From Rhodovulum marinum (GTDB taxonomy: Bacteria; Pseudomonadota; Alphaproteobacteria; Rhodobacterales; Rhodobacteraceae), in contig NZ_SLXP01000003.1 of the NCBI RefSeq assembly GCF_004343075.1, forward strand, positions 62,001 to 126,000: 64,000 nucleotides of DNA, read 5' to 3'. This document shows positions 33,483-48,153 of the stretch, one piece after another. Every line of letters starts with the position of its first letter. Positions within the stretch are counted from its first letter, which is position 1. Under the pieces are notes generated by a model. The model made no database searches. It was not told where the DNA came from and worked only from the letters and a program-made list of their open reading frames with translations. The position numbers were made by a program, and so were the translations under genes.

Positions 33483-34354
33483 GCCTGGCCGTCACCGGCG
33501 CGACGGGGCTGGTCGGGCGGTTCTTCGTCGAAGAGGCGCTGGCGCGCGGAGAGCCGGTGACCGTGCTGACGCGGCAGCCGCCCGCGCCGGGGTTCTTTTC
33601 CGGTCCCGTCCGGCACCTGCCCTATGCGCTGGGCGACCGGCCGGACCTGTCGGGGCATGACGCGGTGATCCACTGCGCTTTTGCCCATGTGCCGGGGCGC
33701 TATCGCGGCGGCGAGGGCGACGACCCCGAGGGGTTCGTGCGGGCAAATCTGGACGGCTCGGTCGCCCTGTTCGAGGCGGCGCGCGTGGCGGGCGTGCGTC
33801 ATGTGCTGTTCCTGTCCACCCGCGCGGTCTATGGCGCCTACCCGCCCGGCACCGCGTTGAGCGAGGAGATGCCGCCCCGACCCGACACGCTGTATGGCGA
33901 GGTGAAGGCGCGGGCCGAGGACACCCTGTTCGGGTTGGCGGCCAGGGGCTTCGTGCCGGTGGCGCTTCGGGCGACGGGGGTTTACGGCCCGGCGGGCCCG
34001 GGGCAGCGCCACAAATGGGCCGGTCTGTTCGAGGATTTCCGCGCGGGCCGGCCCATCGCGCCCCGGCGGGGCACGGAACTGCACGGCGCCGACCTGGCCG
34101 CCGCGGCGCGATTGATCCGGCAGGCCCCGGCGGACGCGGTTTCGGGGCGGGCGGTGAACCTGTCGGACATCCTGCTGGACCGACGCGACCTGCTGGCGCT
34201 GGTGGTCGAGGCCGAGGGGATCGGTTCCCCCCTGCCCCCGGCCAGCGACAGCCCGGTGAGTGCCATGAAGACCGACCGGGCGCGGGTGTTGGGCTGGCGG
34301 CCGGGCGGGATGGCACGGCTGCGCGCCACCCTGCCCGATCTCTTGTCCCGCTAG
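33479..34354 (+). CDS. sqdC: NAD(P)-dependent epimerase/reductase, SqdC-like
   Basis: This is a 291-residue extended SDR protein with the dinucleotide motif VTGATGLVGRFFVEEAL, LSTRAVYG and a catalytic Tyr/Lys in TLYGEVKARAE. In R. sphaeroides, sqdC inactivation blocks normal SQDG formation and a sulfoquinovosyl-dihydroxyacetone species accumulates, which points to a reductase. The symbol rests on operon position plus family. Its stop shares the palindrome CTAG with the stop of the convergent zinc-ribbon gene. Confidence 0.75.
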   Translation: MSLAVTGATGLVGRFFVEEALARGEPVTVLTRQPPAPGFFSGPVRHLPYALGDRPDLSGHDAVIHCAFAHVPGRYRGGEGDDPEGFVRANLDGSVALFEAARVAGVRHVLFLSTRAVYGAYPPGTALSEEMPPRPDTLYGEVKARAEDTLFGLAARGFVPVALRATGVYGPAGPGQRHKWAGLFEDFRAGRPIAPRRGTELHGADLAAAARLIRQAPADAVSGRAVNLSDILLDRRDLLALVVEAEGIGSPLPPASDSPVSAMKTDRARVLGWRPGGMARLRATLPDLLSR

Positions 34355-34680
34355 TGTGAGATCATCCAGGGGCGTTTGCCCGGGAAACTCTTGGACCCGT
34401 CGGGGCGGTGCAGCGTGCCGGATTTCTTTTTCGATCCACCCGAGCAACAGGAACAGCCCGCACCGTGGCCCGAGCGTTTCGGTTCGTGTTGCGCGCGTTC
34501 GTTGGTCTCGTGCGCGCGGCGGACGGAACTGCCGACGATGGCGAGTTTCGGCGCCGTGAACAACGCGCGGGGTGCCTCGCCGCCGCAGCAGGGACAGGCG
34601 GCGGGCTTGTCGAAATCGGCCATGGCGGCAAAGCCGGTGAAGGGGCCGCAATCATCGCAGGCGTAATCGTAATAGGGCAT
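34351..34680 (-). CDS. FmdB-type zinc-ribbon protein
   Basis: This is a 109-residue protein with an N-terminal zinc ribbon (MPYYDYACDDCGPFTGF then ACPCCGG) of the FmdB family, a basic middle, and a second Cys cluster (CSCCSGGSKKK). In Methylophilus, FmdB accompanies formamidase and the amide transporter and was proposed to be a regulator. Here it is the last gene after fmdA, 55 bases away and beyond a strong hairpin. Its last base triplet overlaps the convergent sqdC stop. Confidence 0.85.
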   Translation of the reverse strand: MPYYDYACDDCGPFTGFAAMADFDKPAACPCCGGEAPRALFTAPKLAIVGSSVRRAHETNERAQHEPKRSGHGAGCSCCSGGSKKKSGTLHRPDGSKSFPGKRPWMISH

Positions 34681-34735: not shown

Positions 34736-35965
34736 TCAGAGATCGGGGGCCAGCGGCACGTCGATGGACCCGTCGAGATATTTCGTCGGCCCGTCGCTGC
34801 CGGGTTTGACGTCGAACTCGAAGATGTCGGTGGGCAGCCAGAGCGTGGCGCAGGCGTTGGGAATGTCCACCACCCCCGAGATATGCCCCTGCACCGGCGC
34901 GGTGCCGAGGATCGCGTAGGCCTGCGCGCCGGTATAGCCGAATTTCTTGAGGTATTCGATGGCGTTGAGGCAGGCCTGGCGATAGGCGACGTGGACGTCG
35001 AGGTAATGCTGCTTGCCCTGCTCGTCGACGGAAATGCCTTCGAAGATCAGGTAGTCGTCGTATTTCGGCGCGATGGGCGAGGGTTTGAAGATCGGGTTCT
35101 TGATCCCGTATTTCGAGCAACCGTCCTTGATCAGGTCCACCTTGAGGTGCAGCCAGCCGGCCATCTCGATGGCGCCGCAGAAGGTGATCTCGCCGTCGCC
35201 CTGGCTGAAATGCAGATCGCCCATCGAAAGGCCCGCGCCGTCCACGTAGACGGGGAAGTAGATCTTGCAGCCGCGGCTGAGGTCCTTGATGTCGCAATTG
35301 CCGCCATGTTCGCGCGGGGGCACGGTGCGCGCGCCCTCGGCGGCGGCCTTGTCACGCGCCTCGCCCGTCATTTTGCCCATGTGGGCCGACTGGGTGTTGG
35401 GCAGCGCGGCCAGCGGGGGCACGCGGTCGGGATCGGTGTCGACCAGGGCCTTTTCGCGGGTGTTCCACATGTCCAGCATCTTGCGGTCGGGCAGACAGCC
35501 GATCAGACCCGGATGGATGAGGCCCGCGTATTTCACCCCCGGCACGTGGCGCGACGAGGTGAACATGCCGTGGAAATCCCAGATCGATTTCTGCGCCTCG
35601 GGGAAGTGGTCGGTGAGGAACCCGCCGCCGTTCTGTTTCGAGAAGAAGCCGTTGAAGCCCCAGAGCATTTCTTCCTTGGCGCCAATATCGAGGATCTCGA
35701 CCACCAGCAAATCGCCCGGCTCGGCACCCTTCACGCCGATGGGGCCGGACAGGTAGTGCACCTGTTCAAGTTCGACGTCGCGCACGTCGGCGGCATCGTC
35801 GTTGTTGTGGATCTGCCCGCCGGTCCAGTCATAGGTCTCGATCTTGAAATCGTCGCCCGGATCGACCCAGACGGCGATCGGGATGTCGGGGTGCCAGCGG
35901 TTATGCACGCAGTCGTTGGTGTGCGGGCTTTCGCTAAGGTCCACCGAGATGAGGGTATCAGCCAT
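34736..35965 (-). CDS. fmdA: formamidase
   Basis: It hydrolyses formamide to formate and ammonia, and some family members act on other short amides. It is a 409-residue protein of the FmdA/AmdA (acetamidase/formamidase) family, with a start at ATG 35965 after an AGAGGAAG ribosome site. Recognisable stretches are HNRWHPDIPIAVWVDPGDDF, YLSGPIGVKGAEPGDLLVVE, HPGLIGCLP and MGDLHFSQGDGEITFCGAIE. It follows the ABC transporter genes by 32 bases, which supports amides as the imported substrate. Confidence 0.95.
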   Translation of the reverse strand: MADTLISVDLSESPHTNDCVHNRWHPDIPIAVWVDPGDDFKIETYDWTGGQIHNNDDAADVRDVELEQVHYLSGPIGVKGAEPGDLLVVEILDIGAKEEMLWGFNGFFSKQNGGGFLTDHFPEAQKSIWDFHGMFTSSRHVPGVKYAGLIHPGLIGCLPDRKMLDMWNTREKALVDTDPDRVPPLAALPNTQSAHMGKMTGEARDKAAAEGARTVPPREHGGNCDIKDLSRGCKIYFPVYVDGAGLSMGDLHFSQGDGEITFCGAIEMAGWLHLKVDLIKDGCSKYGIKNPIFKPSPIAPKYDDYLIFEGISVDEQGKQHYLDVHVAYRQACLNAIEYLKKFGYTGAQAYAILGTAPVQGHISGVVDIPNACATLWLPTDIFEFDVKPGSDGPTKYLDGSIDVPLAPDL

Positions 35966-35997: not shown

Positions 35998-36687
35998 TCA
36001 AACGGACAAGAATTTCGAGACTTTCGCCTCGTCCACGCCCGCGCGCGGGCTGTCATGGACGAAGGTGCCGTTCTCGATCACCATCACGCGATCGGCGACA
36101 TCCAGCGCGAAACTCAGCACCTGTTCCGACACGACGATGGACAGGCCCCGCTGGTCGCGGATGCGGCGCAGGGTCTTGGCCATGTCGCGGATGATGTTGG
36201 GCTGGATGCCCTCGGTCGGTTCGTCCAGCAACAGCACCTTGGGGTTCGAGGCCAGCGCGCGGGCGATGGCCAGCTGCTGTTGCTGGCCGCCCGACAGGTT
36301 GCCGCCGCGGCGCGATTTCATTTCCAGAAGCACCGGGAACAGTTCGTAGATATCGGAGGGCACCTGTTTCCGACCGGTGACGGTCAGGCCGGTTTCGACG
36401 TTTTCCTCGACGGTCATCGCCGAAAAGATCATCCGGCCCTGGGGCACGTAGGCCACGCCGTTGGCGACGCGCTGGTGGGGTTTCATGCCGGTGATCTCGG
36501 CCTGGTCCACGCGGACGGTGCCGCCGGTGGCGGGGACAATCCCCATCAGCGTCTTCATCAGCGTGGTCTTGCCCATGCCGTTGCGGCCCATGATGGCCAC
36601 GATCTCGCCCGGGGCGACGTTCAGGTGCAGGCCGTGCAGGATTTCCGATTGCCCGTAGGCGGCGTGCAGGTCGGTGACGTTCAGCAT
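35998..36687 (-). CDS. urtE: urea/amide ABC transporter ATPase
   Basis: This is a LivF-like ATPase of 229 residues: Walker A GRNGMGKTT, signature LSGGQQQQLAIA, Walker B VLLLDEPTEG. UrtE-type proteins energise urea uptake; next to formamidase the substrate may instead be formamide or another short amide, as for the FmdDEF transporter of Methylophilus. It is separated from urtD by 12 bases. Confidence 0.9.
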   Translation of the reverse strand: MLNVTDLHAAYGQSEILHGLHLNVAPGEIVAIMGRNGMGKTTLMKTLMGIVPATGGTVRVDQAEITGMKPHQRVANGVAYVPQGRMIFSAMTVEENVETGLTVTGRKQVPSDIYELFPVLLEMKSRRGGNLSGGQQQQLAIARALASNPKVLLLDEPTEGIQPNIIRDMAKTLRRIRDQRGLSIVVSEQVLSFALDVADRVMVIENGTFVHDSPRAGVDEAKVSKFLSV

Positions 36688-36699
36688 GGCGCGCGCTCC

Positions 36700-37449
36700 T
36701 CAGTGGCCCAGGTAGACTTCGATGACCTTGGGATCGTTCTTCACCCGCTCCATCGAGCCCTCTGACAGGGTCTTGCCCTGGTGAAGGACCGTGACGCGGG
36801 TCGCGATATCCTCGACGAAGCCCATGTCGTGCTCGATCACGATGACCGAGCGGTGGTCGATGATCCGGTTCAGCAACTCGGCGGTCTTCTTGCGCTCGGC
36901 CACCGACATTCCGGCGACGGGTTCGTCCAGCATCAACAGTTCCGGGTCCTGGATCAGCAGCATCCCGATCTCGAGCCACTGCTTCTGGCCGTGGCTGAGG
37001 AAGGCCGCCTTCTCGTCCAGCAGGTCGGCGAGGAAGATCGTCTCGGCGATCTCGGCGATGCGCTCCTTGACCTCGGCGTCGCGGCGGAAGAACAGCGAGC
37101 CGAACACGCCGTGGCCGCGCGGGAAGCTGAGTTCGAGGTTCTCGAAGACGCTGAGATCCTCGTAGACGGACGGGGTCTGGAACTTGCGCCCGACGCCCGC
37201 CAGGACGATCTGGTCCTCGCGCATGGTCAGCAGTTCCTTGCCCTTGAAGCTGACCGAGCCCGATGTCGCCTTGGTCCGGCCGCAGATCAGGTCGAGGACG
37301 GTGGTCTTGCCCGCGCCGTTCGGCCCGATCATCACGCGGCACTCGTTCGGTTCGACATAGAAGCTGAGGCCGTTGACCGCCTTGAAGCCGTCGAAGGACA
37401 CGGTCAGGTCCTCGACCATCAGCACGAAGTTGGGGTTGTTGTAGTCCAT
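36700..37449 (-). CDS. urtD: urea/amide ABC transporter ATPase
   Basis: This is a LivG-like ATPase of 249 residues: Walker A GPNGAGKTT, a divergent signature LSHGQKQWLEIG, Walker B LLMLDEPVAG and switch His in VIVIEHDMGFV. The LSHGQKQW form is typical of UrtD and separates it from amino-acid LivG. It lies 9 bases after urtC. Confidence 0.9.
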   Translation of the reverse strand: MDYNNPNFVLMVEDLTVSFDGFKAVNGLSFYVEPNECRVMIGPNGAGKTTVLDLICGRTKATSGSVSFKGKELLTMREDQIVLAGVGRKFQTPSVYEDLSVFENLELSFPRGHGVFGSLFFRRDAEVKERIAEIAETIFLADLLDEKAAFLSHGQKQWLEIGMLLIQDPELLMLDEPVAGMSVAERKKTAELLNRIIDHRSVIVIEHDMGFVEDIATRVTVLHQGKTLSEGSMERVKNDPKVIEVYLGH

Positions 37450-37458
37450 GGGGTCACC

Positions 37459-38625
37459 TCACTCGGCTGCGGCCTTGCGGGGCTGGGTCAGGCCCGCGGC
37501 GGTGTCGGGGGATGCGGGGGCGGGTCTGGCCGTGCCGCCTGCGAAAAGCTTTCTCGCCCGCGGCATGATCTGTTCCGACCACAGCCCGGCAAGGCCATTG
37601 GGGAAGGTCATGACGACCGCGATGAACAGCGCGCCGAGGCCCAGGAGCCAGAGTTCGGGAAAGCTTTCGGAGAACGTGGTCTTGGCCCAGTTCACCAGAA
37701 GCGTGCCGTAAACCGCGCCAAGGATCGACAACCGCCCGCCCACGGCCGCGAAGATCACCATCTCGATCGAGGGTACGATGCCGACCAGCGTGGGCGACAT
37801 GAAGCCGACCTGGAGCGTGAACATCGCCCCGCCGATGCCTGCGAAGGCCGCACCCAGGCAGAACACGAAGATCTTGAAGCTGGCCACGTCGTAGCCCGAG
37901 AACCGCACCCGGTCCTCCTGGTCGCGCATGGCGATCAGAAGGCGGCCCAGTTTCGAGCGGCGGACATATTGCGCGGCGAAGAGACAGGCGAAAAGCAGCG
38001 CGCCGTTGACGAAGTAAAGCGCCGTCTTGGCCTCGTCTGTGCGGATGTCCCAGCCGTTCAGGGTGCGCAGGTCGGTGATGCCGTTGACGCCCCCGGTGAA
38101 CCCCTGCTGGCCGATGATCAGGATCGTCAGGATCGCGGCGATGGCCTGGGTGATGATGGCGAAGTAGACGCCCCCCACCCGACGGCGGAACATCGCGACC
38201 CCGACGATGAAGGCAAAGACGACCGGCACCACCACCACCGCCAGCAGGCTGAAGAAGAGCGAGTGGAACGGTTCCCACCACCAGGGCAGCGCGGTGATCT
38301 GGTTCCAGTCCATGAAGTCGGGAATTCCCGGCGTGGACTGGATCGCCGTGTTTTCCGGCGTCGAAGCCTCGAGTTTCAGGAACATTGCCATGCAATAGCC
38401 CCCCAGCCCGAAGAACACCCCCTGCCCGAGGCTGAGGATGCCCCCCGCCCCCCAGCACAGCACCAGGCCGATGGCGACGAAGGCATAGGTCAGGTACTTG
38501 CCGAACAGGTTCAGCCGGAACGGGTCGAGCGCCAGCGGAAGGATCAGGAAGACCACGGCGGCGAGGATGGCGAAATAGACGGCCTCTTCGCGGGTCAGAA
38601 AGCGGTTCTTGCGGTCGGTCTGCAT
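37459..38625 (-). CDS. urtC: urea/amide ABC transporter permease
   Basis: This is a 388-residue LivM-like permease with about ten membrane helices, starting MQTDRKNRFLTREEAVYFAIL. The conserved cytoplasmic loop contacting the ATPase is RDQEDRVRFSGYDVASFKIFVF. A Pro/Ala-rich C-terminal tail (about 30 residues) extends past the last helix. It is 10 bases after urtB. Confidence 0.9.
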   Translation of the reverse strand: MQTDRKNRFLTREEAVYFAILAAVVFLILPLALDPFRLNLFGKYLTYAFVAIGLVLCWGAGGILSLGQGVFFGLGGYCMAMFLKLEASTPENTAIQSTPGIPDFMDWNQITALPWWWEPFHSLFFSLLAVVVVPVVFAFIVGVAMFRRRVGGVYFAIITQAIAAILTILIIGQQGFTGGVNGITDLRTLNGWDIRTDEAKTALYFVNGALLFACLFAAQYVRRSKLGRLLIAMRDQEDRVRFSGYDVASFKIFVFCLGAAFAGIGGAMFTLQVGFMSPTLVGIVPSIEMVIFAAVGGRLSILGAVYGTLLVNWAKTTFSESFPELWLLGLGALFIAVVMTFPNGLAGLWSEQIMPRARKLFAGGTARPAPASPDTAAGLTQPRKAAAE

Positions 38626-38635
38626 CGGGTGTCCC

Positions 38636-39562
38636 TCACTTGCGAAGTTTCAGGGCGAACAGGCCTTGCGGGCGCAGCATCAGGATGCCCACGACCACCA
38701 GGAGCGTCAGGACCTTGGCCATCGAGCCCGAGAGGAAGAATTCCATGATCGACTGGGCCTGGCTGATCGAGAAGGCCGAGGCGATGGTGCCCAGCAGGCT
38801 GCCCGCGCCGCCGAAGACGACCACCAGGAAGGTGTCGACGATGTATTGCTGGCCCGCCGTCGGGCCGGTCGATCCGATCATCGTGAAGGCCGACCCCGCC
38901 ACGCCCGCGACCCCGCAGCCGATGCCGAAGGTCATGCGGTCGGTCCAGGCGGTGTTGATGCCGACGGCATCGGCCATCACCCGGTTCTGGTTGATCGCGC
39001 GCACCTGCCGGCCCCAGCCCGAGCGGAACATCAGCACGTAGATGGCGATCGAGATGCCCACCGCCAGCACCATCACGAAGATGCCGTTGATCGGCACCTC
39101 GATCATGTCGGTCAGCGGCAGCGACCCCATCATCCAGTCGGGAATGGTGACGCCCACCTCGCGCGCGCCGAAGATCGAGCGGTAGAGCTGTTGCAGGATC
39201 AGCGACAGGCCCCAGGTGGCCAGAAGCGTATCCAGCGGGCGCTTGTACAGATGACATATCATCGCCCATTCGACGAACATGCCCAGCGCACCCGCCGCCA
39301 CGAAGGCCAGCGCCATCGCCACGAAGAAATACATCGAGAACAGCGCCGGCATGATGTCGGCGAAGACATGCGACACCAGGTAGGTCACGTAGGCGCCGAG
39401 GATCATGAACTCCCCGTGCGCCATGTTGATCACGCCCATCTGGCCGAAGATGATCGCAAGGCCCAGCGCCATCAGCACGAAGACCGAGAAGAGAATGAGA
39501 CCGGCGAAGCCCTGCATCGCGAAGATCGCGGTCAGCTCGCCCATGGAATATCCGGCAAACAC
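38636..39562 (-). CDS. urtB: urea/amide ABC transporter permease
   Basis: This is a 308-residue LivH-like permease. I chose GTG 39562 (then FAGYSMGELTAIF) because a GGAGG ribosome site lies ten bases before it; the in-frame ATG at 39544 is 28 bases away. The hydrophobic core includes FGQMGVINMAHGEFMILGAY and the ATPase-contact loop VRAINQNRVMADAVGIN. In the true frame there is no large periplasmic insertion, unlike the long UrtB of cyanobacteria and enterics. Confidence 0.9.
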   Translation of the reverse strand: MFAGYSMGELTAIFAMQGFAGLILFSVFVLMALGLAIIFGQMGVINMAHGEFMILGAYVTYLVSHVFADIMPALFSMYFFVAMALAFVAAGALGMFVEWAMICHLYKRPLDTLLATWGLSLILQQLYRSIFGAREVGVTIPDWMMGSLPLTDMIEVPINGIFVMVLAVGISIAIYVLMFRSGWGRQVRAINQNRVMADAVGINTAWTDRMTFGIGCGVAGVAGSAFTMIGSTGPTAGQQYIVDTFLVVVFGGAGSLLGTIASAFSISQAQSIMEFFLSGSMAKVLTLLVVVGILMLRPQGLFALKLRK

Positions 39563-39663: not shown

Positions 39664-40932
39664 TTACTGGTAGCCTTCCGGGAAGGGATCGGGTTCCACC
39701 AGGTCGGCGGTTTCGTAGACCACCTCGTACTGGCCGTCGGCCTTGGCGCGGCCGACGCGGGTCTTGGACCAGAGATGGTGGTTTTCGTGGACCTTCACAT
39801 AGCCCTCGGGCGCGCTGGTCAGTTCGATCCCCGGGGACGCCTCGCGCACCTTGTCGACATCGAAGCTGCCGGCCTTTTCGACGGCGGCCTTCCACAGCCA
39901 CGGGCCCAGATAGGCGGCCTGGGTGACGTCGCCGATCACCATGTCGTCGCCCCACATCTCCTTGAAGGCCTTGACGAATTCCAGGTTGTTGTCGTTTTCC
40001 AGCGACTGGAAGTACTTCATGCAGGCATAGGCGCCCTCGATGTTCTCGCCGCCGATGCCGCGGATCTCGTCCTCGGTCACGGAAATCGTCAGCAGGATCG
40101 GTTTCTCCTCGGTCATGTCGATGCCCGCGGCCTTGAGCTGCTTGTAGAAGGCCACGTTCGAGCCGCCGACGACGATGGCGTAGATCACGTCCGGTTTGCG
40201 CAGGCGGATCTTGTTGATGACCGAGTTGAACTGGGTGTGGCCGAGCGGATAGTACTCCTCGCCCACGACCTCGCAGCCCTCCATGAAGTTCTCGATATGC
40301 TTGCGGGCGATCTTGTTCGAGGTGCGCGGCCAGATGTAGTCGGAGCCAAGCAGGTAGAAGGTCTTGGCGCCCTTGGTCTGGTTGACCCAGTCAAGCCCGG
40401 CGATGATCTGCTGGGTGGCCTCTTGCCCGGTGTAGATGACGTTGGGCGACTGTTCGAGGCCCTCGTAGAAGGTCGGGTAGTAGAGAAAGCCGTTATACTG
40501 CTCGAATACGGGCAGCACCGCCTTGCGGCTGGCCGAGGTCCAGCAGCCCATGACGGACGCCACCTTGTCGTTGACCAGCAGTTTCTTGGCCTTCTCGGCG
40601 AAGGTCGGCCAGTCGGACGCGCCGTCTTCCTGGATGTACTCGATCTTGCGCCCGAGGATGCCGCCCTGGGCGTTGATCTGCTCGATGGCCAGCTTCTCGG
40701 CCTGCACGGACCCGGTTTCCGAGATCGCCATAGTGCCGGTCACCGAATGCAGGATGCCGATGGTCACGGTGTCGTCGGTGACAGCCAGCCCCGTGGTGTT
40801 GACGGCTGCGGTCGGGAAATCCTGGGCGCGCAGGCCCTTGGGCGCGAACAGCGATGCGGTCAGCGCGGCGCCCCCGGCCAGAACGGCGCGGCGGCTTACA
40901 CCGGGCATGGTCGGTTTGGAAGAATCTGTCAT
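39664..40932 (-). CDS. urtA: urea/amide ABC transporter substrate-binding protein
   Basis: This periplasmic binding protein has 422 residues, with a Tat-like signal (SRRAVLAGGAALTASLFAPKG). It belongs to the UrtA/AmiC-type branch of the Leu/Ile/Val-binding superfamily (TVTIGILHSVTGTMAISETG, GCWTSASRKAVLPVFEQYNG, YIWPRTSNKIARKH). UrtA proteins bind urea and FmdD-type relatives bind short amides; sequence alone does not decide. The downstream formamidase favours formamide. It is the first gene of the operon and divergent from the transporter-kinase fusion across 290 bases. Confidence 0.92.
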   Translation of the reverse strand: MTDSSKPTMPGVSRRAVLAGGAALTASLFAPKGLRAQDFPTAAVNTTGLAVTDDTVTIGILHSVTGTMAISETGSVQAEKLAIEQINAQGGILGRKIEYIQEDGASDWPTFAEKAKKLLVNDKVASVMGCWTSASRKAVLPVFEQYNGFLYYPTFYEGLEQSPNVIYTGQEATQQIIAGLDWVNQTKGAKTFYLLGSDYIWPRTSNKIARKHIENFMEGCEVVGEEYYPLGHTQFNSVINKIRLRKPDVIYAIVVGGSNVAFYKQLKAAGIDMTEEKPILLTISVTEDEIRGIGGENIEGAYACMKYFQSLENDNNLEFVKAFKEMWGDDMVIGDVTQAAYLGPWLWKAAVEKAGSFDVDKVREASPGIELTSAPEGYVKVHENHHLWSKTRVGRAKADGQYEVVYETADLVEPDPFPEGYQ

Positions 40933-41033: not shown

Positions 41034-41051
41034 ATACGTCGAATGACGTAT
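41034..41051. promoter_or_regulatory. perfect 7-4-7 palindrome, probable response-regulator site
   Basis: ATACGTC-GAAT-GACGTAT is an uninterrupted 7-bp inverted repeat in the gap between urtA and the sensor kinase. LuxR/NarL-type regulators bind comparable short inverted TAC-containing half-sites. Its centre is about 42 bases before the transcription start predicted from TATGAT at 41073, the classic position for an activator contacting polymerase. Confidence 0.6.
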
Positions 41052-41222: not shown

Positions 41223-44200
41223 ATGCACGTTCCGTTCAGCGCGACCGGCGGCCGGCGTAGCTATAATCGCTGGGTCGCCAACGAGACGATGGAGGATTTC
41301 ACGCTGCGCTTCACCGCGCGGCGGGCCCGCCGCTGGAGCCATGCGCGCGTGGCCAACACGGCGCTCGGCTCGATCTCGTTCCTGGCGCTGGAGGCGATCG
41401 GCGGCGCGATCACGCTGACCTACGGGTTCGATGCGGCGATCATCGCGATCATGCTGGTGGGCGCGGTGCTGTTCCTGACGGGCCTGCCGATCAGCTATTA
41501 CGCGGCCCGCTACGGGGTCGATATCGACCTGCTGACCCGGGGGGCGGGGTTCGGCTATATCGGGTCGACCGTGACCTCGCTGATCTATGCCAGCTTCACC
41601 TTCATCTTCTTCGCGCTCGAGGCGGCGATCCTGGCGCTGGCGCTGGAGCTGTGTTTCGGGATCCCGGTGACGCTGGGCTATATCCTGTCGGCGCTGGTGG
41701 TGATCCCGCTGGTGGTGAACGGGTTTTCCAAGATCTCGGCGTTCCAGACCTGGACCCAGCCGTTCTGGGTGGTGCTGCACCTGATGCCCTTCGTCCTGCT
41801 GGCCTGGGCGGGCACCGACCTGTCGGGCTGGACCGGTTATGAGGGCGTCGATGGCAAGGACGGCGCGACGATCCTGATGATCGGGGCGGCGTCGGGTGTC
41901 GCGCTGTCGCTGATCGCGCAGATCGGCGAGCAGGTGGATTTCCTGCGCTTCCTGCCCGAGCCGAAAACCGCGGCCGAGCGGCGGCGCTGGTGGGCGGCGC
42001 TGCTGGCCGCGGGGCCGGGCTGGTCGGTGCTGGGCGTGACAAAGATGCTGGCGGGGTCGTTCCTGGTGACGCTGGCGGTCGGGGCCGCGGTGCCGCCGAA
42101 GGACGCGACCGACCCCACCCGGATGTACCACACCGCCTTCGAACAGGTGCTGTCCTCGCCCGGGCTGGCACTGGCGCTGACGGGCGGTTTCGTTATCCTC
42201 AGCCAGCTGAAGATCAACGTGACGAACGCCTATGCGGGTTCGATCGCGTGGTCGAACTTCTTTTCGCGGCTGACCCACAGCCACCCGGGGCGGGTGGTCT
42301 GGCTGGTGTTCAACGTGGCCATCGCGCTGATGCTGATGGAACTGGGCGTATTCGGCGCGCTGGAACATATCCTCGGCCTTTACTCCCACGTGGCGCTGGC
42401 CTGGATCGGGGCGCTTACCGCAGACCTGGTCATCAACAAGCCGCTGGGCCTGAGCCCCCGGGGGATCGAGTTTCGCCGCGCGCATCTTTACGACGTGAAC
42501 CCGGTGGGGATCGGCGCGATGGGGGGCGCGGTGATCCTGTCCTTCGTGGCCCATTCGGGGATCATGGGCGAGGTGGCGCAGGCGCTGTCGGCCTTCATCG
42601 CGCTGGCGACGGCCTTCGTCATGGCGCCGGTGATCGCGCGCGCCACGGGCGGGCAGTTCTACATCGCCCGCCCCGCCGCCGAGGCCGCGCCGGCGGCCGA
42701 CACCGGACGCAGCGCCACCTGCGCCTGCAGCATCTGCGAATACCGTTTCGACCCCGAGGACATGACCCATTGCCCGTTCTATGCCGGGCCGATCTGTTCG
42801 CTGTGCTGCACGCTGGACAGTTCCTGCCGGGACAGCTGCAAGCCGCATGGGCGCTTTGACGCGATGGTGGTGCGGACGCTGCATGCCGCCCTGCCCGGCC
42901 CGCTGGCCCGCGCGTTGATGTCCCGGCTGTCGGTCTTCCTGATCGGCACGACGATCCCGGCGGCGATCTTCGGCGGGCTGCTCTTGCTGATCCGGGCGCA
43001 TGCGGACAGCCCCGACCTTGACGCGGTGCTGACGGTGATCTTCTGCACCGCGCTGGTGGTCATCGGCGTGATCGCCTGGACCCTGATCCTGGCCATCGAA
43101 AGCCAGCACAAGGCCCGCGACGAGGCCGACCTGCAGACCCAGCGCCTGGTGCGGGAAATCCGCGCCCATGACCGCACCGATGCCGCGTTGCAGCGTGCCA
43201 AGGAAAAGGCCGAGGCCGCGAACCTGGCCAAGACGCGTTACATGGCGGGCATCAGCCACGAGCTGCGCACGCCGCTGAACGCGATCTACGGCTTTGCGCA
43301 GGTGCTGGAGAACGACCCCGCGCTGCCCGCCGGCCGCCGCGACGCGGTGCGCACGATCCGGCGCGGATCGGAACACCTGGCCGGGCTGATCGAGAACCTG
43401 CTGGACATTTCCAAGATCGAGGCCGGGCGGCTGGACATCTATCGCGACCGGATCAACCTGCCGATCCTCTTGCGCCACGTCACCGAGATCTTCGAGGCGC
43501 CGGCCCGCGAGAAGGGGCTGGATTTCGGCATCCGCACCAGCGGGAACCTGCCCGAATGGATCGATTTCGACGAGAAGCGCCTGCGCCAGATCATCATCAA
43601 CCTGTTGTCGAACGCGATCCGTTATACCGAGAAGGGCTCGGTCTCGCTGAACCTGCATTACCGCAACGAGGTCGCGGTGATCGAGGTGTGCGACACGGGC
43701 ATCGGCATCGCCGCGGACCAGTTGGACCGCATCTGGAAGCCGTTCGAACGGCTTTCGGCCAAGGGCGGATCGGGCACCGGGCTGGGGCTGACGATCACCC
43801 GTCTTCTGGTCGACATCCTGGGCGGCGAGATCACCGTGGAAAGCACCCCCGGCGAGGGCACGACCTTTCGGGTGCGGCTGATGCTGCCTTCGGTCATGCC
43901 CGAAGCCGACCAGCCCCGCGCGGCCTCTGCGGCGCCCGAACGGCTCAAGGCGCGGGGCTATCTGGGGCCGCGCAAGACGATCATGGCGGTCGATGACGAC
44001 CTGGATCACCTGCGGCTGCTGGATACGGCGCTGAAACCCATCGGGTTCCTGGTGCAGACCGTGCCGGATGCGGAAACCGCGCTGGACATCCTGGACGACT
44101 GCGCGCCCGACCTGTTCGTCCTGGATATCGACATGCCGGGGATGGACGGCTGGCAGCTGGCCCGACGGCTGCGCGACCGGCCGGAATACCGCTCGACCCC

Positions 44201-44597
44201 GATCGTGATGGTGACGGGCCATGCGCTGGAGGCGCGGATGCCGGTCGACCGCGAGGGGCTGTACGATGCCTTCGTGGTCAAGCCCTATTCGCTGCGCGAC
44301 GTGCTGGTGCGGCTGGCCGACCTGATGAAGATCGAACTGGTCTTCGAGGATCCGTTCGCCGCCGAGGCCGCGCCCGGTGCGCGGCCGCGCCCGCCCGCCC
44401 GGCCAGAGGTTCTGACCCGGTTGAAAAGCCTGGCCGGGATCGGCCACGCGGCAGGCGTGCGCCGCGAACTGGACGCGCTGGAAGAGGCCCGCGCGCTGGA
44501 ACCGGACGCGCTGGCCCGGCTGCGCGACCGGCTGGCCGAGTTCGACATGGCCGGGCTTCAGCGCCTGGTGGAGGAGATGACCCGCGATGCTGCCTGA
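41223..44597 (+). CDS. NCS1 transporter-histidine kinase-receiver fusion
   Basis: This is a 1124-residue hybrid sensor; the start at ATG 41223 has AAGGA just before it. Residues about 40-470 are a complete NCS1 (purine, cytosine, allantoin or hydantoin) transporter of roughly 12 helices, beginning ETMEDFTLRF and RWSHARVANTALG. Residues 500-539 hold nine cysteines. Two more helices follow (SVFLIGTTIPAAIFGGLLLL; VLTVIFCTALVVIGVIAWTL), then a coiled linker. HisKA has His679 (AGISHELRTPLNAIYG), and the ATPase domain has NLLSNAIRYT, CDTGIGIA and GGSGTGLGLTI. A receiver has Asp968 (VLDIDMPGMDG) and a final 75-residue helical region ends the protein. The family arrangement resembles CbrA and PutP-kinase fusions. 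Its divergence from the amide transporter suggests it senses or transports an N-rich compound. Confidence 0.92.
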   Translation: MHVPFSATGGRRSYNRWVANETMEDFTLRFTARRARRWSHARVANTALGSISFLALEAIGGAITLTYGFDAAIIAIMLVGAVLFLTGLPISYYAARYGVDIDLLTRGAGFGYIGSTVTSLIYASFTFIFFALEAAILALALELCFGIPVTLGYILSALVVIPLVVNGFSKISAFQTWTQPFWVVLHLMPFVLLAWAGTDLSGWTGYEGVDGKDGATILMIGAASGVALSLIAQIGEQVDFLRFLPEPKTAAERRRWWAALLAAGPGWSVLGVTKMLAGSFLVTLAVGAAVPPKDATDPTRMYHTAFEQVLSSPGLALALTGGFVILSQLKINVTNAYAGSIAWSNFFSRLTHSHPGRVVWLVFNVAIALMLMELGVFGALEHILGLYSHVALAWIGALTADLVINKPLGLSPRGIEFRRAHLYDVNPVGIGAMGGAVILSFVAHSGIMGEVAQALSAFIALATAFVMAPVIARATGGQFYIARPAAEAAPAADTGRSATCACSICEYRFDPEDMTHCPFYAGPICSLCCTLDSSCRDSCKPHGRFDAMVVRTLHAALPGPLARALMSRLSVFLIGTTIPAAIFGGLLLLIRAHADSPDLDAVLTVIFCTALVVIGVIAWTLILAIESQHKARDEADLQTQRLVREIRAHDRTDAALQRAKEKAEAANLAKTRYMAGISHELRTPLNAIYGFAQVLENDPALPAGRRDAVRTIRRGSEHLAGLIENLLDISKIEAGRLDIYRDRINLPILLRHVTEIFEAPAREKGLDFGIRTSGNLPEWIDFDEKRLRQIIINLLSNAIRYTEKGSVSLNLHYRNEVAVIEVCDTGIGIAADQLDRIWKPFERLSAKGGSGTGLGLTITRLLVDILGGEITVESTPGEGTTFRVRLMLPSVMPEADQPRAASAAPERLKARGYLGPRKTIMAVDDDLDHLRLLDTALKPIGFLVQTVPDAETALDILDDCAPDLFVLDIDMPGMDGWQLARRLRDRPEYRSTPIVMVTGHALEARMPVDREGLYDAFVVKPYSLRDVLVRLADLMKIELVFEDPFAAEAAPGARPRPPARPEVLTRLKSLAGIGHAAGVRRELDALEEARALEPDALARLRDRLAEFDMAGLQRLVEEMTRDAA

Positions 44598-45510
44598 GAC
44601 ACTTTCCGCGCCGCTGTTGCCCGCCCGCTCGATCGCGCTGGTGATCGACGATGCGCCCGAGACGCTGGGCCTGATCTCGACCGCGCTGGAGGACAACGGG
44701 ATGACCGTGCTGGTGGCGCGGTCCGGCGCCGAGGGGATCGAACTGGCCCGCCGGGTGCGGCCCGACGTGATCCTGATGGACGCGATGATGCCCGGGATGG
44801 ACGGGTTCGAGACCTGCCGCGCGCTGAAATCAGGGCCGCGACCCGAGCCCGCGCCGGTGATCTTCATGACCGGACTGACCGAATCCGAGCATATCCTGAA
44901 GGGGCTGCGCGCGGGCGGGGTCGATTACATCACCAAGCCGGTGGTGGTGGACGAACTGATCGCGCGGATCATCACCCACGTGCTGAACGCGCGCGCCATA
45001 GCCTCGGCGCGCATGGCGCTGGAACAGGCGGGGCAAAGCGTGCTGGCCTTTGCCCCCGACGGGCGGCTGGCCTGGGGCTCGCCGGGGGCGCTGGCGTTGC
45101 TGGAAACCGCCGAGGCGCGCGCCCTGGTCGCCGAAGGCCGCGCCAGCGCGCCGTTGGCCCGCTGGCTGGCGGGGCTGGCCGAACAGCCGATATCGACCGC
45201 CCAGCCTTTTGCCGGGTCCGGGTTCGCATTGAAATACCTGGGCCAGAATCCCGGCGAGATCATGGTACGGATCAAGCGCCATGCCGAGGGCGAGAACGAG
45301 TCCCTGCTGGCCGAGGCCTTCGGGCTGACCGACCGCGAGGCCGAGGTGCTGTTCTGGCTGACCCGCGGCAAGACCAACCGCGACATCGCCGAAATCCTGG
45401 AACTCAGCGCGCGGACGGTGAACAAGCACCTGGAACAGGTGTTCCACAAGATGGGCGTGGACAACCGCACCTCGGCCGCGGTGATCGCCGACCGGCTGCT
45501 GAACGCCTGA
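44587..45510 (+). CDS. LuxR-type response regulator
   Basis: This is a 307-residue protein. The receiver (about residues 15-135) has the acidic pair in ALVIDDAPE, phosphoacceptor Asp65 (ILMDAMMPGMDG), Thr in FMTG and Lys in YITKPV. A middle region (about 145-235, SVLAFAPDGRLAWGSPGALALLE) looks like a degenerate PAS fold. The C-terminal LuxR helix-turn-helix reads LTDREAEVLFWLTRGKTNRDIAEILELS. It overlaps the kinase gene by 11 bases, so the two form a phosphorelay pair. The likely targets are the palindrome at 41034-41051 and the urt-fmd operon. Confidence 0.93.
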   Translation: MLPETLSAPLLPARSIALVIDDAPETLGLISTALEDNGMTVLVARSGAEGIELARRVRPDVILMDAMMPGMDGFETCRALKSGPRPEPAPVIFMTGLTESEHILKGLRAGGVDYITKPVVVDELIARIITHVLNARAIASARMALEQAGQSVLAFAPDGRLAWGSPGALALLETAEARALVAEGRASAPLARWLAGLAEQPISTAQPFAGSGFALKYLGQNPGEIMVRIKRHAEGENESLLAEAFGLTDREAEVLFWLTRGKTNRDIAEILELSARTVNKHLEQVFHKMGVDNRTSAAVIADRLLNA

Positions 45511-45519
45511 GCGGGCACA

Positions 45520-46605
45520 TCAGCCCGGGCCGCCCACGTCCTGCGGCGCGACCGAGACGGATTTCACGACGGCATGCACGGCAACGCCCGGCTCCAGCCC
45601 CAGCGCCTGGGCCGAACGGCGGGTGATCCGCGAAAGCACCCGGCCCGCGGGCGTATCCAGCGCCACCATCGCGCCCGGCCCCCCGCGGCTGCGCACCTCG
45701 TGCACGGTGCCGGGCAGGATGTTCAGCGCCGACAGCCCCTCGGGCCGGGTCCGCGCCAGAAGCACGTCATGGGCGGCGATGCGCACGCGCACCGGGCTGC
45801 CGGGCGCCAGATCGGTGCGCGGCAGGAACAGGGGAACACCGCCCGCGGAAAGTTCGGTCAGCCCGTCGGCATGGTGCGCCACCACCCGGGCCGCGATCAC
45901 CGCGCCGGCCTCGCGCGCGCCGGCGGGCGTCACGGACGGATCGCCCAGCACCTGGGCCGCGGGGCCCTGGCGCAGGACGCGGCCGTCTTTCAGCGCGACG
46001 ACGGTGGTGGCCAGCCGGGCCACCTCGTAGGCCGAGTGGCTGACATAGAGGATCGGCACCGACACCTCGTCGCGCAGCCGTTCGAAATAGGGCAGGATCT
46101 CGGCCTTGCGGTCCTCGTCGAGCGCGGCGAGCGGTTCGTCGGCCAGGATCAGGCGCGGCGCGGACAACAGCGCGCGCCCGATCGCGACGCGTTGTTTCTC
46201 TCCCCCCGAAAGCGCGCCGGGGCGGCGGTCGAGCAAATGACCGATGCCCAGCAGATCGACGACATGGCCCATGTCCTCGCGCGGGGCGTCCTTGGGCGCG
46301 AACCAGCGGCCGAACAGCAGGTTCTGGCGCACCGTCAGGTGCGGGAACAGCCGCCCCTCCTGGAAAATATAGCCCAGCCTGCGGCGATGCGTCGGCAGGC
46401 GGCGGCCGCGGGCGGTGTCCAGCAATATCCAGTCGCCCGCGGCGATGCGGCCCTCGTCGGGGCGCAACAGGCCCGCGACCGCGTTCACGATCGTCGTCTT
46501 GCCCGAGCCAGACCGGCCGAACAGCACCGTGACGCCCGGCGGCGCCTCGAAGCGCACGTCCAGTGCAAATCCCGGGAAGGCGTGGCGCAGCGTGACCTGC
46601 AGCAT
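45520..46605 (-). CDS. modC: molybdate ABC transporter ATPase
   Basis: This is a 361-residue ATPase: Walker A FGRSGSGKTT, signature LSGGEKQRVAIGRAL, Walker B LILADEPLAALDE. The C-terminal part is a MOP (molybdate-binding) domain (SPVRVRIAAHDVLLARTRPEGLSALNILPG), diagnostic for ModC. Its start overlaps the modB stop by one base (TGATG). Confidence 0.95.
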   Translation of the reverse strand: MLQVTLRHAFPGFALDVRFEAPPGVTVLFGRSGSGKTTIVNAVAGLLRPDEGRIAAGDWILLDTARGRRLPTHRRRLGYIFQEGRLFPHLTVRQNLLFGRWFAPKDAPREDMGHVVDLLGIGHLLDRRPGALSGGEKQRVAIGRALLSAPRLILADEPLAALDEDRKAEILPYFERLRDEVSVPILYVSHSAYEVARLATTVVALKDGRVLRQGPAAQVLGDPSVTPAGAREAGAVIAARVVAHHADGLTELSAGGVPLFLPRTDLAPGSPVRVRIAAHDVLLARTRPEGLSALNILPGTVHEVRSRGGPGAMVALDTPAGRVLSRITRRSAQALGLEPGVAVHAVVKSVSVAPQDVGGPG

Positions 46606-47300
46606 CAGCCGCCCCCCACGCGCCGGGCGACCCGGCGCCCGATCACCTCGGACAGCAGGAGCGCGGCCATCGCCACGGCGACCGACACCAGGACCAGCCG
46701 CATAGCGGCCCCCTCGCCGCCCGGCACCTGGAGGAAGGCATAGATCGCGGACGGGACGGTGCGGGTCTGGCCGGGGATGTTCGACACGAAGGTGATCGTC
46801 GCACCGAATTCACCCATCGCCTTGGCGAAGGCCAGGATCGCGCCCGCGACGATGCCGGGCAGGATCATCGGCAGGGTCACGGTCAGGAACACCCAGAGCG
46901 GCGAGGCCCCCAGCGTCGCCCCCGCCTGTTCGAGTTTCGGGTCCACTGCCTCGATCGACAGGCGGATCGCACGGACCATCAGCGGGAAGGCCATGACACC
47001 CGCGGCCAGCGCCGCCCCCGTCCAGCGAAAGGCGAAGACGATGCCAAGATCGGCCAGCGGGCCGCCCACCGGCCCCCGGGTGCCGAAGGTCAGCAGCAGC
47101 AGGTAGCCCGTGACCACCGGCGGCAGGATCAGCGGCAGGTGGACGAGGCCGTTCAAGAGTTGCCGCCCGGGGAATGTCCAGCGCGCAAGGGCATAGGCCG
47201 TGAACACGCCCAGGGGCAGGCTGACCAGCGTGGCCCAGAAGGCGACGCGCAGCGACAGCGCCACCGCCTGCCATTCCTCGGGGCCCAGCCAGTCGCCCAA
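46605..47300 (-). CDS. modB: molybdate ABC transporter permease
   Basis: This is a 231-residue permease with about five to six membrane helices, starting MGDWLGPEEWQAVALSLRVAF. The EAA-type loop contacting the ATPase is EQAGATLGASPLWVFLTVTLP. It lies between modA and modC in the standard order; the modA stop is 4 bases upstream. Confidence 0.94.
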   Translation of the reverse strand: MGDWLGPEEWQAVALSLRVAFWATLVSLPLGVFTAYALARWTFPGRQLLNGLVHLPLILPPVVTGYLLLLTFGTRGPVGGPLADLGIVFAFRWTGAALAAGVMAFPLMVRAIRLSIEAVDPKLEQAGATLGASPLWVFLTVTLPMILPGIVAGAILAFAKAMGEFGATITFVSNIPGQTRTVPSAIYAFLQVPGGEGAAMRLVLVSVAVAMAALLLSEVIGRRVARRVGGG

Positions 47301-47304
47301 GCGC

Positions 47305-48087
47305 CTACTCCGCCAGCATGGTGAAGCCCTGCCGTTCGAAGGCGGCGCGCGCCTCGGGGCCGGTGAGGTAGGCCATGAACGCCGCCTCGGCCGCGGTGTC
47401 TCGGTTGGCCAGGTCGGCGGCGGGATAGACGATGGGGGGGTGGCTGTCGGCGGGGAAGGTGCCGATCACGCGGACCCGGTCCTCGGCGGCGGCATCGGTC
47501 GCGTAGACGATGCCGAGCGGCGCCTCGCCGGCGGCCACCAGCGCCAGTGCGGCGCGGACGTTGTCGGTTTGCGCGACCTGCGGCGCGATCCCGTCCCAAA
47601 GCCCCAGGCTGTCGAGCGCGGCCTTGCCGTAGATGCCGGCGGGCACCGCGTCGACCAGCGCCATGGCCAGGCGCCCCTCGCCCAGAAGGCCCGCAAGGTC
47701 GAGGTCCGGGGCGATCTCGACCGGGGTGGTGTCGGCGTCATGGGCGATCAGGACGATCGCGTTGGAGAGAAGGTCGCGGCGCGTGCCGGGTTCGACCAGC
47801 CCGTCGGCCACGAGCGCGTCCATCCAGCCCGGGTTGGCCGAGATGAAGATATCGGCGGGTGCGCCCTGCTGGATTTGCCGCGCCAGCGCCGACGAGGCGG
47901 CCAGCGACACGGTCAAGGCGTGCCCGGTCGCGGCCTCGAACCCGGTTTCGATCTCGGCCATGGCGTTGGCGAGGCTGGCGGCGGCGAAGACGGTGACATC
48001 GTCCGCGGCGGCCTGCAGGGGGAAAAGCGCGGTGGTCATGGCAAGGGCCAGGGCGGCGGTACGGGACAGGAACGGGCGGACGGGCAT
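47305..48087 (-). CDS. modA: molybdate-binding periplasmic protein
   Basis: This is a 260-residue binding protein, with a start at ATG 48087 and a signal peptide ending PLQAAADD. The ModA pattern is VTVFAAASLANAMAEIETGF, SLAASSALARQIQQGAPADIFISAN and VPAGIYGKAALDSLG, which contribute the oxyanion-binding Ser/Ala/Tyr residues. It is 66 bases after modE. No molybdoenzyme gene lies in the window. Confidence 0.94.
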   Translation of the reverse strand: MPVRPFLSRTAALALAMTTALFPLQAAADDVTVFAAASLANAMAEIETGFEAATGHALTVSLAASSALARQIQQGAPADIFISANPGWMDALVADGLVEPGTRRDLLSNAIVLIAHDADTTPVEIAPDLDLAGLLGEGRLAMALVDAVPAGIYGKAALDSLGLWDGIAPQVAQTDNVRAALALVAAGEAPLGIVYATDAAAEDRVRVIGTFPADSHPPIVYPAADLANRDTAAEAAFMAYLTGPEARAAFERQGFTMLAE

Positions 48088-48153
48088 CGGGGGCGGCCTT
48101 TGCTGGTTATGGTCTGAAAAACATATCGCAGCGCTCCAACGATCCGGCAAGCG

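Follow-up and report, generated by a model that had tools for sequence, protein, structure and literature searches.

A fused NCS1-like transporter and hybrid histidine kinase of Rhodovulum marinum that probably senses urea or simple amides

We analysed a stretch of 64,000 nucleotides from Rhodovulum marinum (contig NZ_SLXP01000003.1, positions 62,001 to 126,000; hereafter the window, whose own numbering is used throughout) and found that its plus-strand gene at 41223–44597 encodes an NCS1-type transporter fused to a hybrid histidine kinase (1124 aa). The kinase probably detects urea or simple amides, e.g. formamide, and switches on genes for their uptake and breakdown, as judged from its gene neighbours and from a DNA site shared among its relatives. 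The architecture of the protein, its NCS1 fold, the linkage to urea and amide genes, and an operator-like site together with its co-occurrence with the system are established by computation. We consider it rather likely that the fusion belongs to a dedicated two-component system in which the NCS1 module reads urea or short amides and which controls the adjacent operon.

Translation of 41223–44597 gave a single stop-free frame, the start of which agreed with the aligned N-termini of close relatives. A first-pass annotation of this DNA had described one frame joining an NCS1-type transporter, a cysteine cluster, two helices, a HisKA domain (His679), an HATPase and a receiver (Asp968), and translation, Pfam and a structure model bore this out. 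Pfam placed HisKA at residues 670–735 (43230–43427), HATPase_c at residues 783–888 (43569–43886) and the receiver (Response_reg) at residues 920–1029 (43980–44309), all on the plus strand. H679, N793, N797, G851, G853, D968 and K1020 were invariant in 77/77 aligned rows (the window copy and 76 relatives); N793/N797 and G851/G853 we take to be the N-box and G-box of the HATPase. Judged by these residues, the fusion is a hybrid histidine kinase, with the HisKA His, the N-box Asn and G-box of the HATPase, and the Asp and Lys of the receiver. Pfam detected no HPt domain up to E 1 and no PAS domain in the protein, and residues 480–660 matched no Pfam domain.

A frameshift between the transporter and kinase parts, for which the earlier annotation had allowed, was not borne out, and we rejected a fusion through frameshift or misassembly: relatives carry the fusion intact. 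The best 80 genome loci held relatives at 47–89% identity to the window protein, the majority full length. In a wider sample described below, 76/77 transporter-domain matches lay within frames of at least 894 aa, the exception being a frame of 281 aa in genome G430. Mean pairwise identity over the 77 aligned rows was 66% for the transporter domain, 68% for the cysteine cluster, 71% for HisKA, 63% for HATPase, 45% for the receiver and 37% for the two extra helices. The idea that the transporter domain is the best conserved part was rejected, as HisKA and the cysteine cluster were slightly higher. Where rows were annotated, the kinase was named 'ATP-binding protein', 'response regulator' or 'ArcB'. 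We conclude that the fusion is real, conserved and functionally coherent.

The transporter domain (residues ~40–475; 41340–42647, plus strand) escaped Pfam. PF02133 (NCS1) had no match in the window protein, residues 1–640 matched neither Pfam nor NCBIfam, and with 40 orthologs PF02133 was absent from the 25 families listed of 31 weak matches. Sequence searches of the PDB gave three chance matches with the protein as query and none with the profile. Because Pfam failed on this domain, fold and profile comparison was used instead. An AlphaFold2 model of residues 1–660, built from 40 window and locus sequences, had a mean pLDDT of 84.9 and a pTM of 0.85, and 12 helices were counted in its transporter part. 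The top five Foldseek hits of the model in the PDB were CodB and Mhp1 structures (E 1.4e-9 to 3.5e-7, target TM 0.66–0.75); other families (Nramp, SSS, APC) entered the ranking only from E 4.5e-6 on. Profile-profile comparison with 27 Pfam-defined NCS1 proteins gave a probability of 98.8 and an E of 4e-17 over 377 columns. An SSS-type input domain was rejected, since hhalign against ten SSS proteins gave a probability of 0.5% and SSS structures ranked below NCS1. Among six unfused relatives scanned, the one from Klebsiella (44% identical) exceeded the Pfam NCS1 cut-off (37.7 vs 23.5 bits) and the remaining five fell below it. The own genome contained no Pfam-detectable NCS1 permease at E 0.001. 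Taken together, the input domain is NCS1-like according to model and profiles; the first-pass assignment is upheld by the CodB/Mhp1 fold and the profile match, and in Pfam through one of the six unfused relatives scanned.

The kinase gene and the gene of a LuxR-type regulator are divergent from urtABCDE–fmdAB, and the 'amide transporter' noted earlier next to the kinase is this urtABCDE with fmdAB. On the minus strand, urtA encodes the amide/urea-binding protein (39664–40932; Pfam Peripla_BP_5, E 3e-130). Orthologs annotated accordingly identified, by tblastn, the ABC permease genes urtB (38636–39562) and urtC (37459–38625) and the ABC ATPase genes urtD (36700–37449) and urtE (35998–36687). 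The formamidase gene fmdA (34736–35965; NCBIfam FormamaseFmdA equivalog, 772.9 bits vs a cut-off of 500) and the gene of an FmdB-like zinc-ribbon protein of 109 aa (34351–34680; 'zinc ribbon domain-containing protein' at the orthologous position) complete the operon; the start codons of urtB and fmdA are assumed. On the plus strand, the partner response regulator gene (44587–45510), encoding a receiver and a LuxR/GerE DNA-binding domain (Pfam Response_reg, GerE), shares 11 bp with the end of the kinase gene. After it, on the opposite strand, lie molybdate-type ABC genes (45520–48150; modC, modB and modA by eye).

This arrangement recurred among relatives. In a first set, the best 80 genome loci and as such biased to close relatives, we found a UrtA match in 79, the likely partner regulator adjacent in 76 and FmdA in 52. 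By class, urt was combined with fmd in 51 loci, with ure in 16 and with both in 2; it stood alone in 7, and 4 loci, three of them near a contig end, had none of these genes. Devosia-type loci carried classical urea-transporter genes with ureD, ureJ and urease instead. The wider, mostly evenly drawn sample came from a profile search of 385 Alphaproteobacteria and 398 Pseudomonadota genomes. Transporter-domain matches occurred in 26 and 54 of these, respectively, with the own genome counted in both samples and two unfused or fragment-only genomes included in the Pseudomonadota count. The own genome, G590:C40 and G573 (unfused) and G632 (fragment) were left out before arriving at 77 loci, and L242, from a search with the cysteine cluster, made 78. 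Within stretches of at most 20 kb (~10 kb each way), 71/78 fused loci contained urt, formamidase or urease genes: 23 urt and fmd, 19 urt, fmd and amidase, 12 urt, 10 urt and ure, 4 ure, and 3 fmd. The link to urt–fmd genes suggested by the first-pass annotation is thereby confirmed. A later count found the regulator (receiver plus GerE) next to the kinase in 152/156 loci, those with less than 4.3 kb from the kinase start being excluded. In two loci where the usual urea and amide genes were not nearby, the gene after the regulator encoded a chemotaxis receptor (L273:4231–6264) or the pyruvate symporter CstA (L081:14381–16447). Plasmid records also matched the transporter domain, 342/528 of them from Klebsiella, and unfused relatives are present in two or more Klebsiella records.

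The label of formamidase-type or urease-type locus changed about nine times on the best quick tree of 165 domains (L275 excluded, loci with both or none uncounted, unfused L244 and L223 counted); the tree has long branches (L223, L245, L246) and nine is an estimate. A sensor that serves either kind of locus would be expected to recognise something that the two have in common. Urea and formamide resemble each other in size and shape, and both are simple nitrogen sources. Genes for formamidase, aliphatic amidase, urease and the urt ABC transporter are the neighbours that recur, and they strongly indicate urea or short amides as the ligand class. The ligands first proposed were a nucleobase, hydantoin, allantoin or an amide; this list was too wide, and judged by the same neighbours only the amide stands.

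The ligand pocket was mapped by combining an alignment of the domain with NCS1 proteins and an alignment of NCS1 proteins to Mhp1 and CodB. The window residues equivalent to Mhp1 W117, Q121, N318, S312/T313 and W220 were F129, E133, N335, K330/I331 and A227, respectively; roles of pocket residues follow PMC9379551 and PMC13390362 (for these and all papers cited below, statements refer to the accessible part of the text). NCS1 permeases sandwich ring substrates between two aromatic residues (PMC9379551). Unlike Mhp1 with Trp117 and Gln121, the fusion has Phe, or Leu in many urease-type relatives, and Glu at these places: position 129 was Phe in 102/103 formamidase-type loci and Leu in 34/48 urease-type loci. 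At position 227, the place of Trp220, the five commonest states among relatives were aliphatic or Gly. On this alignment, the ring-clamping aromatic pair is weakened, not wholly lost. A role of Phe/Leu129 as a ligand switch was only a lead, as independent tree pairs were not significant (1.3 of 6 pairs on average). E133, K330, N332, N335, Q328, F53 and E57 were shared by all 151 fused relatives whose context is known, with no difference between formamidase and urease loci. At the Na2 sodium site, NCS1 permeases have two hydroxyl side chains on transmembrane helix (TM) 8, Ser/Thr or Thr/Thr, whereas Lys/Ile (K330/I331) was found here; a shift by one residue gives L329/K330, which is likewise hydroxyl-free. 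The invariant Lys330 thus aligns at the NCS1 sodium-binding place.

These data also bear on the alternative that the domain reads a nucleobase, hydantoin or allantoin and that urt–fmd is controlled since these compounds are degraded to urea. The NCS1 fold is consistent with it, as is the aromatic residue at the Trp117 place in nearly all formamidase-type loci. The closest unfused relatives bear the names 'allantoin permease' or 'cytosine permease' or are labelled hypothetical, a more distant one from Paracoccus aminophilus (L247) stands beside hydantoinase genes, and one neighbourhood (L126) has xanthine dehydrogenase-family genes further out. However, in the annotated neighbourhoods read around fused members, among which no systematic search was made, genes of ring catabolism did not recur, whereas those of urease, formamidase and amidase did. 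The second ring-sandwich place is aliphatic, and the first is Leu in most urease-type loci. To our knowledge, neither purine nor hydantoin breakdown runs through formamidase, which also argues against this alternative. We regard it as quite improbable.

A perfect palindrome, ATACGTCGAATGACGTAT (41034–41051), lies in the divergent promoter and is the predicted site of the response regulator. It was the sole 18-mer without mismatch in the 3.9 Mb genome, the next best having two mismatches; sites with up to three mismatches numbered 20, vs 30 for the reversed control. Its 16-base core occurs once in the window. A promoter scan detected no sigma-70-like site. When we scanned 330 bp upstream of 163 kinase genes, the window included, for gapped palindromes, one family stood out: TACG-N8-CGTA was present in 116/163 regions, and the best palindrome in three single-base shuffles reached at most 12. 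Loci with less than 250 bp upstream or an incomplete N-terminus were excluded from this count. Without the window, the figure was 115/162, compared with 0/159, 1/155, 0/162, 1/153 and 1/151 in control windows taken from these loci. The consensus of the upstream sites was ATACGTC-R-A-W-T-G-ACGTAT. Thirty further sites were found in 3.3 Mb of loci. Of these, 17 precede urtA, fmdA or an amidase gene by 12–101 bp, in some cases at loci that have the kinase and the target operon apart from each other. Among 198 genomes of the host family, the strict site occurred in 9, the fused kinase in 7 and both in 6 (the own genome included), adjacent in 6/6 (Fisher p 7.5e-9).

The site was found in 0/4 regulator-less loci, which carry a short kinase, and in none of eight unfused-permease loci where no fused kinase was noticed. 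Its absence from regulator-less and kinase-less loci suggests that it is tied to the regulator, not to urt or fmd generally. The short kinase form (857–887 aa; L225, L226, L242, L245) has neither the usual regulator nor the palindrome, and adjoins formamidase and a channel gene of the AmiS/UreI type. Some urease-type loci (L234, L292, L083) have a variant, TACGCC-N4-(G/T)GCGTA, upstream of urtA, which is perhaps a drifted operator.

Unfused relatives of the sensor domain were found in similar contexts. Of nine close ones examined, six adjoin urease, formamidase, amidase or the sensor, and three do not. A Klebsiella relative annotated 'cytosine permease' (L321:6956–8563), 44% identical to the sensor domain, follows ureG of a urease cluster that has an insertion sequence between ureC and ureE; by its sequence and position it is a candidate urea permease. 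In two Acinetobacter records the unfused relative precedes ureEFGJDABC, in Moraxella it is divergent from fmdA–fmdB, and in Arthrobacter U41 it precedes an aliphatic amidase gene. An Acinetobacter baumannii record (L326:3335–8611, unannotated there) has the unfused permease divergent from a fused kinase and regulator, with a TACG-N8-CGTA palindrome between them. A more distant relative (L223) lies near the gene for an amide-binding-type protein.

These relatives raise the question of whether the fused domain still transports. As a special form of urea/amide sensing, with which its likelihood overlaps, the fusion might be a bifunctional permease that imports urea or the amide itself and signals the flux. 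This would resemble CbrA, whose SLC5 domain imports histidine and has a lysine (K196) in the Na2 site (PMC13022988), as Lys330 here aligns where sodium binds. The unfused relatives also resemble working permeases in urease clusters. However, an ABC importer, probably of the same substrates, is encoded next door, and in the A. baumannii record the fused protein has a separate, unfused permease at its side, to which the transport task might have passed. Moreover, E57 is invariant in 151 fused relatives and Phe in the three unfused ones compared, and the transporter-kinase Ks-Amt5 binds ammonium and does not translocate it (PMC5764959). We give this bifunctional form clearly less than an even chance.

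Several observations weigh against urea/amide sensing as set out here. No urea or amide gene was seen in 7/78 fused loci (contig ends truncate L283 and L310, whereas L265, L267, L268 and L273 are uncut, and L275 holds a truncated kinase), in the first-set locus L081 CstA adjoins the kinase and urt is absent, and the stretches fetched for the unfused relatives Streptomyces L323 and Arthrobacter L248 and L327 contained no such gene. The site was lacking from 47/162 upstream regions and from 41/152 regulator-bearing loci, it was present in 82/103 formamidase-type vs 25/48 urease-type loci, and 13 of the 30 further sites stood upstream of none of the genes tested. Within the host family, 3/9 site-bearing genomes had no fused kinase and 1/7 kinases had no site. 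F129 retains an aromatic residue at the Trp117 place, and residue 228, beside the lost Trp220 place, is Phe in 89/162 relatives (Leu in the window); the pocket mapping itself rests on one profile alignment, in which the TM6 part is uncertain. The relatives are not independent samples, and only the tree and the family count partly allow for kinship. Finally, linkage alone cannot separate ligand sensing from sensing of nitrogen status.

If the latter applied, the kinase would sense nitrogen status, ammonium or ion flux, and the transporter domain would be a membrane anchor or ion sensor. Ammonia is released by both enzyme systems, so that nitrogen state is common to both contexts, and the position of Lys330 at the sodium place is a further point in favour. 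However, conservation of the transporter domain is similar to that of the kinase core (66% vs 71% for HisKA and 63% for HATPase), and the polar pocket-lining residues kept in 151/151 relatives go beyond the needs of an anchor. A nitrogen regulon would be expected to have more sites than the single one in this genome, and unfused members occur in urease clusters as would-be permeases. We therefore consider nitrogen-status sensing unlikely and favour urea or short amides as the signal.

Between transporter and kinase lie eight cysteines (residues 502–539; 42726–42839, plus strand) in the pattern C502-x2-C505...C517...C525-x2-C528-C529...C535-x3-C539, each of which is kept in at least 150/151 fused relatives. 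In the model, this segment is small, contains strands and follows the 12 transporter helices; the cluster is possibly metal-binding. Two further helices follow (residues 568–593 and 599–659; 42924–43199, plus strand), the second of which, in the model, likely extends as a coiled coil towards HisKA. Two unfused relatives (L247:7113–8741 and L244:11950–13557) have a shortened cysteine tail (CxxC...CxxC), so that the cluster may be older than the kinase fusion.

Fusions of transporters with kinases are known. CbrA, CrbS/MxtR and RpuS (PMC9100948 for the last) are SLC5/SSS-STAC kinases that likewise use a LeuT-fold transporter as kinase input and control nutrient uptake or use. In CbrA and CrbS this is an SSS domain, whereas here it is NCS1-like, and the cysteine cluster and the two helices take the place of PAS/STAC, PAS having no Pfam match. 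The ligand class, here probably urea or short amides, would also differ from that of CbrA, CrbS and RpuS. CrbR is, like the regulator described here, of the LuxR family and needs an inverted repeat; the sites shown for it, however, are imperfect repeats of another sequence (PMC5715377).

The first-pass statement that known transporter-kinases use SSS/SLC5 domains was correct for these proteins and incomplete. Amt is a further transporter family, different from NCS1. In Ks-Amt5, an Amt ammonium transporter fold fused to a kinase is the sensor of a small nitrogen compound, as proposed here for urea or amides (PMC5764959). CodB and Mhp1 resemble the sensor domain in fold and profile, and MetT is an NCS1 member that takes metformin, a small nitrogen-rich non-ring compound (PMC13390362); unlike the sensor domain, all three are not kinase-fused. 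The urea and amide system described in Klebsiella as UTS (UrtABC/AmiF) combines formamidase and urt genes, and such genes adjoin the fused kinase in two Klebsiella plasmid loci. The two loci read (L243, L250) have the kinase with urtABCDE and formamidase, annotated 'ATP-binding protein'. The UTS paper describes the transporter and formamidase, and neither 'histidine kinase' nor 'two-component' is used in its accessible text (PMC13060141); in that of a paper on amidase loci, 'histidine kinase' and 'response regulator' are absent. A kinase said to sense ammonia (PMC12918730) was set aside. Among the matches listed in our literature search, which subscription papers mostly lie outside, there was no published NCS1 kinase and no kinase linked to urt–fmd or urt–ure. 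We conclude that the fusion is a further type of transporter-kinase ('transceptor'). We also know of no bacterial two-component kinase that senses urea, and the literature matches listed contained none.

For the ligand, the direction of control, DNA binding, phosphotransfer and the question of transport, we infer the following course of events. The NCS1-fold domain would bind urea or a short amide of the formamide class, with or without moving it. A rearrangement of the domain would then reach the coiled coil and HisKA via the cysteine cluster and the additional pair of helices. The LuxR-type regulator encoded next door would receive the phosphate; the transfer would be direct, or the internal receiver would form a side branch. 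This receiver, whose Asp and Lys are kept throughout, may act as a phosphate sink. The regulator would bind the ATACGTC-N4-GACGTAT palindrome and activate the divergent urtABCDE–fmdAB operon. In relatives, its targets would be urt with urease, fmdA alone, or an unfused NCS1 permease.

Beyond the single protein, the findings point with about even probability to an undescribed NCS1 branch that handles urea and short amides. Its unfused members would serve as permeases in some urease clusters (Acinetobacter, Klebsiella) and in formamidase/amidase loci, and one member would have become the input module of a dedicated urea/amide kinase that has its own operator and occurs in many Pseudomonadota and on Klebsiella plasmids. 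The predicted operator with its unique genomic site makes the regulatory claim directly testable, and comparing fused sensors with the unfused permeases paired with them would be a natural test of the change from transporter to receptor. If the proposal is true, transporter-kinases extend beyond SSS and Amt domains, and the NCS1 family gains a new ligand class.

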